The translations under genes were made by a program, and so were the position numbers. This document shows, piece after piece, positions 373-9,335 of a stretch of 9,335 nt of DNA. This DNA is from Candidatus Desantisbacteria bacterium CG1_02_38_46 (GTDB taxonomy: Bacteria > Desantisbacteria > UBA1551 > UBA1559). The notes beneath the pieces were generated by a model. That model was not told the DNA's origin. It saw only the letters and a list, made by a program, of their open reading frames with translations, and searched no databases. Every line of letters starts with the position of its first letter. The stretch's first letter is position 1. The DNA is taken from NCBI GenBank assembly GCA_001871015.1, contig MNUO01000120.1, positions 1 through 9,335 of the forward strand, in the 5' to 3' direction.

Positions 373-448
373 TGGTGGCGCGTACGAGAGTTGAACTCGT
401 ATCTCTACCTTGAGAGGGTAATGTCCTTAACCGTTAGACTAACGCGCC
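373..448 (-). tRNA. tRNA-Glu (anticodon CUC), CCA encoded
   Basis: A full cloverleaf can be folded on the minus strand. The acceptor GGCGCGT pairs with ACGCGCC. The D arm is GTCT/GGAC. The anticodon stem TTACC/GGTAG holds the loop CTCTCAA, giving anticodon CUC, which reads GAG. The T arm is ACGAG-TTCAACT-CTCGT. The discriminator is A at 376 and CCA is encoded at 375-373. With C at the first anticodon position it should read only GAG, so a UUC isoacceptor is expected elsewhere. It lies about 65 nt downstream of the broken NYN gene. It is not a copy of the half tRNA-Glu at 2492-2534, because the D loop and anticodon-stem bases differ. Confidence 0.95.
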
Positions 449-513: not shown

Positions 514-738
514 TTAAAAACAGCATTTAAGAAATTGGCTATTGAGAAAAATAAATTTATCACACACCTGTCTTAAATGCCAAGATGCACAATGTCTTGC
601 TTGACGGTTTTTCCTTGGCCAGAAATATGCATTTTCTACGTGTTTCCCTTTTCTCTTCACAGCTTCTATTACATATGCAAAATCTCCATCACCACTTACT
701 AAAATACATGTATCATAAGCATTTTCGTAAGCCATTTC
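514..738 (-). pseudogene. NYN/PIN-like (LabA/DUF88-type) protein, 3' part, severed by IS630
   Basis: This is the C-terminal 74 codons of the split NYN gene. It continues in frame from the part at 1876-2188 once the IS and one TA are removed: the junction codons become CTA-GAA-ATG, giving ...DML-EMAYENAYD.... It holds the conserved CILVSGDGDFAYVIE segment, whose two aspartates (restored residues 122 and 124) belong to the NYN metal-binding acidic cluster, followed by the GKHVE strand and the RQVCDKFIFL segment near the end. An ATG at 735 could allow internal initiation, but no Shine-Dalgarno site precedes it and the sequence upstream is now the IS end. It is probably not a functional protein alone. 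Confidence 0.85.
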
Positions 739-740
739 TA

Positions 741-771
741 GTGTGATGTTTCATAAATAACTTGACATTTG
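741..771 (+). repeat. IS630 left inverted repeat
   Basis: This 31-bp end pairs with 1843-1873. The outer 12 bp differ at one base, and the inner block ACATTTG (764-771 region) is again shared. It contains the -35 box of the transposase promoter. Confidence 0.85.
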
Positions 772-790
772 GACATTTATGTGGTATAAT
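762..790 (+). promoter_or_regulatory. Sigma70-type promoter of the transposase
   Basis: TTGACA at 762-767 and TATAAT at 785-790 are separated by exactly 17 bp, a perfect housekeeping consensus. Transcription should start at about 797, next to the ATG at 798. The -35 box lies inside the left inverted repeat, so transposase bound to the end could repress its own transcription (inference). Confidence 0.85.
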
Positions 791-797
791 AATATGC

Positions 798-1862
798 ATG
801 AATATATCAGAACGAATCATGCTTACACCGGAAGAAGAATCGGCTGTCAGTTGCTGGGCGAAAGGGAAAAGATTTCCAGTGCGTTTAGTCCAGCGGGCGC
901 AAATCATCCAGATGGCATCGCAGGGTGTTTTCAATCACGACATAGCCAGGCACTTGGGTATCTCCCGTCCGACCGTCCAGTTATGGCGGAAGCGTTTTTT
1001 GGCTCTGCGATTAGCGGGGTTGGAAAAAGACGCCCCGCGTCCGGGACGTTTCCCAAAGATCAGTCACCAGAAAGTTACAGCTATAGTGAGTGCTACCCTG
1101 CATACAACGCCTTCCAATGCAACTCACTGGAGTGTGCGCACTATGGCCAAATCGCAGAGAATCAGCGAAGCAACTGTCTGGCGCATCTGGAAACAATACA
1201 ATCTGAAACCCCATTTGATCAAAACGTTCAAGCTCAGCCGGGACAAGCGGTTCCTGGAGAAACTTTACGATATTGTTGGTCTTTATATGAATCCGCCGGA
1301 CAAATCGATTGTCTTCTGTGTGGACGAAAAAAGCCAGATTCAGGCATTAGAGCGGACACAGCCCTTGCTTCCGCTGAGGCCAGGTATTCCTGCAAGACAA
1401 ACTCACGATTATATGCGCCATGGTACAACGACATTATTTGCAGCATTAAACATGCTCGACGGCACTGTGCTGGGAGATTGTATGCCACGGCACAGACATC
1501 AGGAATTTATCAGATTCCTGCAGACTATCAATACAAAGACTCCTCTGGATCTGGACCTTCACCTGATAGTCGACAACTACGGCACACACAAACATCAACG
1601 TGTTCAGAGGTGGTTAAAACGCCATCCCAGGTTTCACATGCATTTTACGCCCACATCCAGTTCGTGGGTAAACCTGGTAGAACGATGGTTCTCCGAGATA
1701 ACATTAAAAAGAATTCGTCGTGGCTCGTTCAAAAATGTAAAAGAGCTAATCACAGTTATCAAACAATACATTGAATCTCATAATCAAAATCCAAAAGTAT
1801 TCGTTTGGACTGCTTCAGTTGAAAGCATTATGAGAAAAATTTCAAATGTAAAGATCTGTTAG
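798..1862 (+). CDS. IS630-family DDE transposase
   Basis: This 354-residue enzyme would cut and rejoin the IS ends at TA sites. The N-terminal region has a helix-turn-helix (about 45-66, HDIARHLGISRPTVQLW) and a second winged-helix-like segment (about 88-135) for end recognition. The catalytic DDE domain follows: D176 in VFCVDEKSQ, D259 in HLIVDNYGTHKH, and E295 in SSSWVNLVERWFSEIT, the last being the hallmark IS630 block. Length and motif spacing fit an intact enzyme with no frameshift. I start it at ATG 798: the TTG at 762 is the -35 box, so translation cannot begin there on this promoter's mRNA. No Shine-Dalgarno site precedes 798 or the next in-frame ATG at 819, so the mRNA may be leaderless. 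The stop at 1860-1862 lies within the right inverted repeat. Confidence 0.93.
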   Translation: MNISERIMLTPEEESAVSCWAKGKRFPVRLVQRAQIIQMASQGVFNHDIARHLGISRPTVQLWRKRFLALRLAGLEKDAPRPGRFPKISHQKVTAIVSATLHTTPSNATHWSVRTMAKSQRISEATVWRIWKQYNLKPHLIKTFKLSRDKRFLEKLYDIVGLYMNPPDKSIVFCVDEKSQIQALERTQPLLPLRPGIPARQTHDYMRHGTTTLFAALNMLDGTVLGDCMPRHRHQEFIRFLQTINTKTPLDLDLHLIVDNYGTHKHQRVQRWLKRHPRFHMHFTPTSSSWVNLVERWFSEITLKRIRRGSFKNVKELITVIKQYIESHNQNPKVFVWTASVESIMRKISNVKIC

Positions 1863-1873
1863 AAACACCACAC
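1843..1873 (-). repeat. IS630 right inverted repeat
   Basis: This is the partner of 741-771. It carries the transposase stop codon, and read on the minus strand it adds the residues WCF and a TAA stop to the severed NYN protein. Confidence 0.85.
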
Positions 1874-2188
1874 TAGCATATCGGTGGCAATTGCAACATC
1901 CACGCCTTTTTCTTCAGGTGGAGCTCCTTCTCTTTTTTCAAGCCTGCCTAACCTTACTGTAAAATTCGGTATAGTTCTCAGATAGGCAAAGAACCTTTGT
2001 TGATCTTTATATCTTTCTCCTTCATTGGTGCTCAAAGTAGCATTGTAATAGTAAGTACGTAATAAATCTCTCTGTCCCACCAATAATTCAACAAACTTCT
2101 GAAAATTAATTTTTGAAATACCGATATTTTCTTTAAGGCCGTGGTAGAAATTACTTCCATCAATAAAAATAGCAATTCTTTCATCCAT
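1859..2188 (-). pseudogene. NYN/PIN-like (LabA/DUF88-type) protein, 5' part, severed by IS630
   Basis: The host-derived part is 1876-2188 (105 codons counting the TA). Translation then runs into the IS end and stops after VWCF at 1859-1861. The start is ATG 2188, with AGGGAG five bases upstream; a GTG at 2194 overlaps that Shine-Dalgarno site and is unlikely. Visible NYN features are the first strand RIAIFIDGSNFYHGL with D10, a YYYNA strand, and EEKGVDVAIATDML with D97 and D103. Joined to 514-738 it gives 179 residues, a normal length for a single-domain NYN protein. The family has a PIN/FLAP-nuclease-like fold and is thought to act on RNA with a metal ion; the substrate here is unknown. The truncated product lacks the SGDGDF motif, so it should be inactive. 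Its expression looks controlled by the leader at 2200-2329. Confidence 0.88.
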
Positions 2189-2199
2189 GCCCACTCCCT

Positions 2200-2234
2200 A
2201 AAAAGAAACAGGGGGTTGACTCAGCAACCCCCTG
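2200..2234 (-). terminator. Intrinsic terminator in the NYN leader (candidate attenuator)
   Basis: A perfect 10-bp stem, CAGGGGGTTG (2225-2234 on the minus strand) with CAACCCCCTG (2209-2218), encloses a 6-nt loop. It is followed directly by TTTCTTTTT (2208-2200). The T-run abuts the AGGGAG ribosome site of the NYN gene. The terminator therefore ends transcription just before the coding sequence unless it is prevented from forming. Confidence 0.85.
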
Positions 2235-2329
2235 GAGGTAATAAACCCATTCTTGACAAGCAAAAATGGGGAGATAATAATCCTTGCATCCCAACTGAAA
2301 TGCAAGGTGCATTCTTCAATTCTTCTACT
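2200..2329 (-). promoter_or_regulatory. Structured 5' leader of the NYN gene, possible cis-regulatory RNA or small RNA
   Basis: About 130 nt separate the predicted start (about 2329) from the terminator end. In order, two hairpins precede the terminator: an 8-bp stem CCTTGCAT/ATGCAAGG (2300-2307 with 2282-2289), and a 9-bp stem with one G-U pair (2262-2270 with 2246-2254, 7-nt loop). CTCCCC at 2268-2273, at the base of hairpin 2, could instead pair with the G-run of the terminator stem (2228-2232), giving a mutually exclusive antiterminator. I recognise no T-box, SAM, preQ1 or other known riboswitch signature. The transcript could equally be an independent terminated small RNA. Confidence 0.5.
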
Positions 2330-2335
2330 GTATAT

Positions 2336-2363
2336 AGTATACTCATTTTTTCTCAAAAGTCAA
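2336..2363 (-). promoter_or_regulatory. Sigma70-type promoter for the NYN leader and gene
   Basis: On the minus strand TTGACT (2363-2358) and TATACT (2341-2336) are separated by 16 bp in an AT-rich tract. The start would be near 2329. This gives the NYN gene transcription independent of the gltX/tRNA unit upstream. Confidence 0.7.
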
Positions 2364-2491: not shown

Positions 2492-2534
2492 CCGCCTTGA
2501 GAGGGCGATATCCTGACCACTAGACTAACGCGCC
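2492..2534 (-). pseudogene. Truncated tRNA-Glu (CUC): 5' 43 nt only
   Basis: From 2534 the minus strand reads GGCGCGT (acceptor 5' strand), TA, a D arm GTCTAGTGGTCAGGAT and a complete anticodon arm TCGCC-CTCTCAA-GGCGG with anticodon CUC. It stops exactly at tRNA position 43 and is followed by AAAAAAGATG. The variable loop, T arm and acceptor 3' strand are missing and do not occur elsewhere in the window. The anticodon stem is self-consistent up to the break, so this is a broken gene and not half of a hybrid with the intact tRNA-Glu at 373-448. It lies 17 nt downstream of tRNA-Gln, as expected for an ancestral Gln-Glu tRNA pair. Confidence 0.88.
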
Positions 2535-2551
2535 GCAAAAATTCAAATCCA

Positions 2552-9098: not shown

Positions 9099-9127
9099 TT
9101 GACTTTTAAGAGAGATCCCTGTATAAT
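9099..9127 (+). promoter_or_regulatory. Sigma70-type promoter, plus strand
   Basis: TTGACT (9099-9104) and TATAAT (9122-9127) are exactly 17 bp apart. Transcription would start near 9134 and run rightward, divergent from clpP. No open reading frame with a ribosome site follows in the window, which points to a non-coding transcript or a long leader. Confidence 0.75.
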
Positions 9128-9133
9128 ATCTTT

Positions 9134-9335
9134 AAAGGTATTAAGAGGGAAATGCTTTTTCTCCTTGTTGTATCCCGATGGACATCGGGATAGCTTCTTT
9201 AGAAAGTCTGCTTCCCTGGGTAGAGGCCAAAAATTCTAACACGTAAATTGTTCAGTCTCCTTGAGACGCCTTGCAAGCAGCAAGGTTTGTACCCGCTCTT
9301 AGAGATTAGTTCTAATTCCTGCGAGGCTGTTTTTA
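9134..9335 (+). ncRNA. Structured non-coding RNA, possibly 6S-like (runs off the window)
   Basis: The transcript from the promoter at 9099-9127 contains several pairings. A closing helix pairs TTAGAA-AGTCT (about 9201-9211) with AGATT-AG-TTCTAA (about 9303-9315), and an outer AGCTTC pairs with GAGGCT near the right edge. Between them lie CTTCCCTGGGTAGAGG on the 5' side and, on the 3' side, a hairpin CCTTGC-AAGCA-GCAAGG (about 9269-9285) followed by TTTGTACCC. A closing stem, a CCCTGG-containing bubble strand, and a small CCTTG hairpin in the opposite strand resemble 6S RNA, the RNA polymerase mimic. GTCTC-CTT-GAGAC adds another hairpin. The apical stem is not the long one usual for 6S, so the identity is tentative. 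It could instead be the leader of a gene outside the window. It seems to end near the T-run at 9330-9334. Confidence 0.4.
9171..9192. repeat. Perfect-arm palindrome in the RNA's 5' part
   Basis: TATCCCGATG (9171-9180) and CATCGGGATA (9183-9192) are exact reverse complements separated by GA. The core CCGATG/CATCGG is the same as in the element inside gltX (3049-3106), suggesting one dispersed family. Confidence 0.85.

Follow-up and report, generated by a model that had tools for sequence, protein, structure and literature searches.

Locus layout

The window analyzed here—a complete contig of 9,335 bp from the 1.73-Mb genome of Candidatus Desantisbacteria bacterium CG1_02_38_46—carries on its minus strand a promoter, three short hairpins, and a terminator that runs directly into the ribosome-binding site of an NYN-family ribonuclease gene, itself split by an insertion sequence. 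In window coordinates, the features are as follows:

2336..2363, minus strand: promoter of the RNA gene, TTGACT-16-TATACT, with 10/12 matches; expected start near 2329
2282..2307, minus strand: hairpin 1, 11 bp, least like the other units; 37 nt ahead of hairpin 2 and in register with it
2246..2270, minus strand: hairpin 2, canonical unit with tail AUUAUUAUCUC
2209..2234, minus strand: hairpin 3, canonical unit with tail UUUAUUACCUC, doubling as the terminator stem
2200..2208, minus strand: U-run TTTCTTTTT, intrinsic terminator after hairpin 3
2194..2199, minus strand: Shine-Dalgarno site AGGGAG of the NYN gene (ATG at 2188-2186)
1876..2194, minus strand: NYN ribonuclease gene, 5' part, with FIDGSN and KGVD motifs (PF01936, E = 3.2e-12; PADLOC HEC-09, E = 3.8e-10)
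741..1873, plus strand: IS630-like element inside the NYN gene (transposase 762-1862; TA on either side, 739-740 and 1874-1875)
514..738, minus strand: NYN gene, 3' part, with SGDGDF motif (PF01936, E = 4.6e-14), with the insertion lying between it and the 5' part

A first-pass annotation, made from the sequence alone, had described the promoter, two hairpins, and a terminator as an attenuator or terminating riboswitch, and all of these parts are present (2363-2200, minus strand). The T-run that it saw touching the Shine-Dalgarno site is equally real, TTTCTTTTT being followed directly by AGGGAG, TGGGC, and the ATG, and the PF01936 matches (3e-12 for the 5' part, 5e-14 for the 3' part) confirm the NYN identity. 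Two points had been overlooked: the IS630-like insertion in the NYN frame, which has inverted ends TAGTGTG(A/G)TGTTTC and inactivates the NYN half in this genome, and the repeat-like spacing of the three hairpins, which follow each other at 37 and 36 nt. The leader folds at -49.0 kcal/mol, a value equaled by 1 of 200 dinucleotide shuffles (z = -3.1), and it has no second copy elsewhere in its own genome. No match was found in Rfam 15 at E up to 10, in keeping with the earlier remark that no known riboswitch class could be recognized. The proposed antiterminator, in which CCCC of hairpin 2 pairs with GGGG of the terminator, lies 5.4 kcal/mol above the best fold, also when the nascent chain is considered, and its G-run is missing from homologous leaders (L018, L062, L097, L142, L187; locus numbers are ours).

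Elsewhere in the window, a partial tRNA-Glu(CUC) gene (2495-2535, minus strand) directly follows a tRNA-Gln gene; it comprises the 5' half and breaks off past the anticodon stem. An intact tRNA-Glu(CUC) gene lies on the opposite side of the NYN gene (373-448, minus strand), and the NYN-RNA loci L118 and L083 likewise have tRNA genes next to them. About five tandem 26-bp copies with the palindrome CAGGACTTTAGTCCTG occupy 227-356, upstream of a truncated reading frame resembling cyclic-nucleotide-binding proteins. At 9099-9192 (plus strand), a strong promoter-like TTGACT-17-TATAAT precedes the hairpin TATCCCGATGGACATCGGGATA, with no gene in sight.

A family of hairpin RNAs beside NYN genes

A search with an alignment of NYN proteins returned 94 loci, and the 170-200 nt ahead of each match were read. 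Conservation of the leader upstream of NYN homologues, on which the first-pass annotation had staked its reading beforehand, was borne out in the form of a structured RNA. The same pattern recurs in bacteria, including L018, WOR-3 (L019), Brocadiales (L045), Syntrophaceae (L062), and Coatesbacteria (L097), in Methanophagales (L025, L026) and many DPANN archaea, and on viral contigs (L099, L100). Its unit consists of an A/U-rich 5' tail of about 10 nt, ending in CUC or similar, followed by an 11-bp hairpin, and hairpins 2 and 3 of the window match this unit family. Nearly all bacterial loci have two or three units and archaeal loci mostly one; the repeat spacing is mostly 34-40 nt, reaching 43 nt among bacterial loci.

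Covariance models were built from units beside NYN homologues (R1 from 25 units, R2 from 45), hairpin 3 scoring 44.8 bits against R1 (E = 7.5e-10) as a member of its seed. Across the 45 units, 91.7% of cells are paired versus 66.0% when shuffled, 130 cells show double changes versus 43, and pairing falls to at most 46% when the partner is slid by 1-3 columns. Among cells that are not Watson-Crick, G-U outnumbers other mismatches (16 vs 12, p = 5e-6), which points to selection acting on RNA. A single covarying 11-bp hairpin accounts for the conservation, and no pseudoknot is evident by eye; loops and much of the stem vary among units. We dropped the idea that the CUCC tail mimics the 16S anti-Shine-Dalgarno, as the tail sequence varies between loci. 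The last hairpin is followed by a U-run or terminator in the window and at roughly half the bacterial loci (L018, L062, L097, L142, L144, L179, L187), and the T-run is missing in L019, L045, L099, and L100. In a further Rfam 15 search of 12 homologous loci, tRNAs were the only matches. The small hairpin RNA linked to NYN genes is a previously undescribed family without an Rfam match.

Linkage, orientation, and distribution

Model R2 was run without protein information on approximately 1,460 genomes: 386 that are related to the window's own, one DPANN group, and the phyla to which L025, L019, L064, and L045 belong. This RNA-only search recovered 37 new loci, 24 of which have an NYN gene of this family, whole or partial by HMM, within 1.5 kb (p ~ 3e-39 at an assumed background chance of 1%). 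The other 13 comprise two with NYN remnants only (L158, L173), one with a divergent NYN start recognized by eye (L169), and ten without NYN, one of them a plain terminator; L145, a plain terminator, was rejected as a false positive of the model. Another candidate, a "terminator before Shine-Dalgarno" at L004, trails an upstream glycine-dehydrogenase-like gene and is not the hairpin RNA. The search filters were strict, and prevalence is a lower bound.

Presence of the RNA tracks the NYN tree, requiring 7 changes versus 32 when shuffled (0/500 shuffles). Of 24 genomes already known as carriers, most yield one or two copies with R1. Where there are second copies, L118 and L127 adjoin second NYN genes, and L124 lies within a 4-kb inverted duplication. 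A 4-kb inverted duplication (99.3%) containing an NYN-RNA pair was seen in a Coatesbacteria genome (L191 7454-11516 and L192 9896-5834).

At most loci, the RNA lies directly ahead of the NYN gene on the same strand, in archaea roughly 10-100 nt from the start codon. At nine loci, it is instead antisense to the gene—upstream and divergent in L064 and L023, downstream and convergent in the other seven (L027, L098, L186, L071, L072, L086, L140)—and in L071 palindromes stand on both sides of NYN. At L027 (2929-3610), leuB and a leuA-like gene flank the NYN gene and its antisense RNA, an arrangement that resembles a compact inserted module. The RNA is a gene of its own, linked to NYN, and not a leader element. 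What stands of the first-pass reading is a structured, conserved RNA preceding NYN; what falls is its role as a cis-acting attenuator or riboswitch, given that the same RNA occurs antisense or with no NYN nearby.

The module is spread patchily over bacteria and archaea, mostly in single copy, a distribution that looks like horizontal transfer. The NYN match is absent from the one other genome of the window's phylum that was examined. In sequenced phages and plasmids, only distant NYN matches (30-35%) were found, and a search for defense-island context showed ten neighboring proteins to be mostly housekeeping, with one N6-methylase. No named cultured carrier of the pair was found among the genomes searched, which are mostly MAGs. 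A search for missed RNAs beside RNA-less NYN genes (L077, Deinococcota, Chloroflexota) found none; the Deinococcota and most Dehalococcoidia NYNs have no recognizable RNA, though they share the same catalytic residues.

Promoters and predicted RNA start

Bacterial loci have a sigma-70 promoter just before the first hairpin, with at least 10/12 matches in 14 of 21 (2.4% when shuffled) and the end of the -10 box mostly 16-18 nt before the first stem. When archaeal loci are aligned on the first stem, a TATA box appears at -39 to -33 (A+T 0.81-1.00, with every base A or T at -36 and -35), and 98% carry A(-8)U(-7). Most antisense RNAs have a promoter of their own (L064, L027, L023, and archaeal ones). 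By the usual promoter-to-start spacing, both promoter types would put the RNA start some 10 nt ahead of the stem, close to the conserved AU at -8/-7, which suggests a common start site in the two domains.

RNAs that outlast the NYN gene

At seven loci, the RNA and its promoter are kept and the NYN gene is broken: the window, with its IS630-like element, and L158, L162, L168, L173, L179, and L183. In L183 (1545-2264), the NYN frame is cut after about 60 residues by a sequence that by eye resembles DUF3800, and the RNA units remain. Four genomes (G913, G928, G585, G680) have the RNA and no NYN at a threshold of 1e-8, and in G913 and G928 none was found anywhere in the genome at that threshold. 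Orphan RNA arrays with a perfect TTGACA-17-TATAAT promoter and a U-run, and no NYN nearby, were observed at L180, L181, and L184. Inside the RNA-bearing clade, the count of intact NYN genes lacking the RNA is 1/28, compared with 15/36 on the other side of the comparison (p = 4e-4, the two samples having been drawn differently). This asymmetry, in which the RNA outlasts NYN, is the trace expected of a toxin that is costly and an antitoxin that is harmless, though any decay of a gene pair could mimic it. Most of the genomes are MAGs, and an absence or a broken gene may therefore be an effect of assembly or of the population.

The NYN protein

Most NYN/LabA (DUF88) proteins, a common group, have no assigned function. 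The protein of L018 is predicted to adopt the PIN-like NYN fold: its AlphaFold model (pLDDT 93.2) aligns over nearly the whole chain with VPA0982 (2QIP; Z = 21.5) and with the MARF1 NYN RNase (Z = 16.8). The active-site Asp residues are invariant in 16 homologues, whose catalytic site is intact. The profile of HEC-09, a PADLOC defense candidate, matches the 5' part in the window (E = 3.8e-10) and the homologues (1e-17 to 7e-29), matches that include RNA-less NYNs and do not involve PADLOC's coverage cut-off.

Interpretation

The RNA and the NYN gene may form a type III-like toxin–antitoxin module with the RNA as antidote, a reading that we rate at about an even chance and favor over an RNA cofactor and over autoregulation. 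We favor it on account of the locus layout, the patchy single-copy spread, and the RNA outliving broken NYN genes; RNA covariation, linkage to NYN, antisense and detached copies, promoter positions, and the NYN fold with its Asp residues speak for it as well. On this view, a small RNA with one, two, or three 11-bp hairpin units would be transcribed from a promoter of its own and form one half of the module, and the adjoining NYN-family ribonuclease gene would form the other. In the commonest bacterial layout, most transcripts would end at the last hairpin, and occasional read-through would yield NYN mRNA. The NYN protein would cut or bind the RNA, and unit-length RNAs of about 36 nt would keep the nuclease inactive until RNA synthesis is halted, for example by phage infection, and the nuclease is freed. 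The analysis shows the RNA family, its covariation, linkage to NYN, independent orientation, promoter positions, and the intact NYN active site in homologues; RNA binding and processing, toxicity, release, and the ratio of stopping to read-through are inferred. Several observations count against it: no pseudoknot was seen, many archaeal loci have a single unit, neighbors are mostly housekeeping genes rather than defense islands, and the large RNA-less NYN clades with the same catalytic residues imply that those NYNs need no such antidote.

The hairpin RNA could instead be a positive part of an NYN ribonucleoprotein, serving in scaffolding, specificity, or sensing and not as an inhibitor. Strict linkage and clustering on the tree fit a defined ribonucleoprotein as well as an antitoxin, and the sharply conserved 5' tail, the near-fixed RNA start in both domains, and the single-unit archaeal RNAs are in its favor; on the other hand, a dedicated cofactor would not be expected to outlast, promoter included, a broken or absent NYN, and variable loops and stem leave no guide sequence evident. 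We consider this cofactor role unlikely. Autoregulation, in which NYN would keep its own mRNA in check by binding or cutting the hairpins of its 5' leader, is an idea to which we give the same low probability. RNase III and RNase E limit their own mRNAs by such leader action, and the usual position of the RNA, on the same strand directly ahead of NYN (in archaea about 10-100 nt from the start codon), suits it, but the nine antisense loci, most with their own promoters, and the existence of orphan RNAs do not.

That the paired palindromes act as DNA, as mobile-element ends or binding sites, would accord with the palindromes flanking NYN in L071, the placement of the L027 module between leuB and a leuA-like gene, and the IS-like patchy spread, but it is very improbable in view of the preference for G-U over other mismatches, promoters that point into the hairpins in both domains, and copy numbers of one or two in most genomes, not those of dispersed repeats. 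Lastly, the terminating riboswitch or attenuator with antiterminator, suggested by a promoter, a structured leader, and a terminator reaching the Shine-Dalgarno site, is rejected as scarcely credible: the antiterminator is energetically unfavorable, neither G-run nor U-run is conserved across loci, Rfam has no match, and a cis attenuator could not work from the antisense upstream and downstream positions seen in L064, L023, L027, L098, L186, and others, which contradict a rule of always lying in the 5' leader.

Whether the type III-like module or the cofactor is the better description, we are fairly confident of the broader proposition: that this is a cross-domain system of bacteria, DPANN archaea, and Methanophagales in which short hairpin RNAs, their 5' ends nearly fixed, regulate or aid NYN ribonucleases, representing a new class of RNA antitoxin or a new ribonucleoprotein without a described counterpart. 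An RNA inherited with NYN offers a direct, testable partner for a mostly unassigned protein family, and other NYN genes could be screened likewise for RNA partners. If the type III-like reading is true, the principle of an RNA inhibiting an RNase would extend to the PIN-like fold and to archaea with tiny genomes.

Comparison with known systems

The known bacterial NYN ribonucleases—VPA0982, the CRISPR-associated NYN of B. fragilis, and HEC-09—share the fold and the Asp active site. The related B. fragilis protein is an RNase that depends on Mn and loses its activity with the D13A mutation (PMC11346440), and antiviral activity has been shown for HEC-06, a different HEC candidate (PMC12988326). 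In the literature searched, where preprints and subscription journals were sparsely covered, we found no description of a linked hairpin RNA for bacterial NYNs, nor of NYN with a noncoding RNA or in a type III toxin–antitoxin system.

Promoter, repeats, terminator, ribosome site, and RNase gene together make up the layout that defines type III loci (PMC5086642). ToxIN, AbiQ, and CptIN likewise combine tandem RNA units of 34-36 nt (here mostly 34-40 nt) with a terminator and an endoribonuclease gene. Their toxins, however, have a MazF-like fold in place of the PIN-like NYN fold, and their RNAs form an H-type pseudoknot, known from crystallized antitoxins, where ours by eye is a plain 11-bp hairpin; the NYN-linked RNA, moreover, often has one unit in archaea, has a terminator at about half of the bacterial loci, and is sometimes antisense. 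The NYN-RNA module is not a member of ToxIN, and with a different fold and no pseudoknot seen we do not claim it as type III proper.

The AbiF-RCd22 locus of a Clostridioides difficile prophage, which consists of a promoter, two RNA motifs, a Rho-independent terminator, and a gene for a toxic nuclease-type protein (PMC12373285), has nearly the same layout as the NYN-RNA locus, and its RNA, RCd22, neutralizes AbiF by direct binding, both in cis and in trans (PMC12373285). It differs in that its protein is Abi_2/AbiF and not NYN and the RNAs are unrelated (no Rfam match), whereas the NYN-linked RNA is found in archaea, too, and at some loci lies antisense to its gene.
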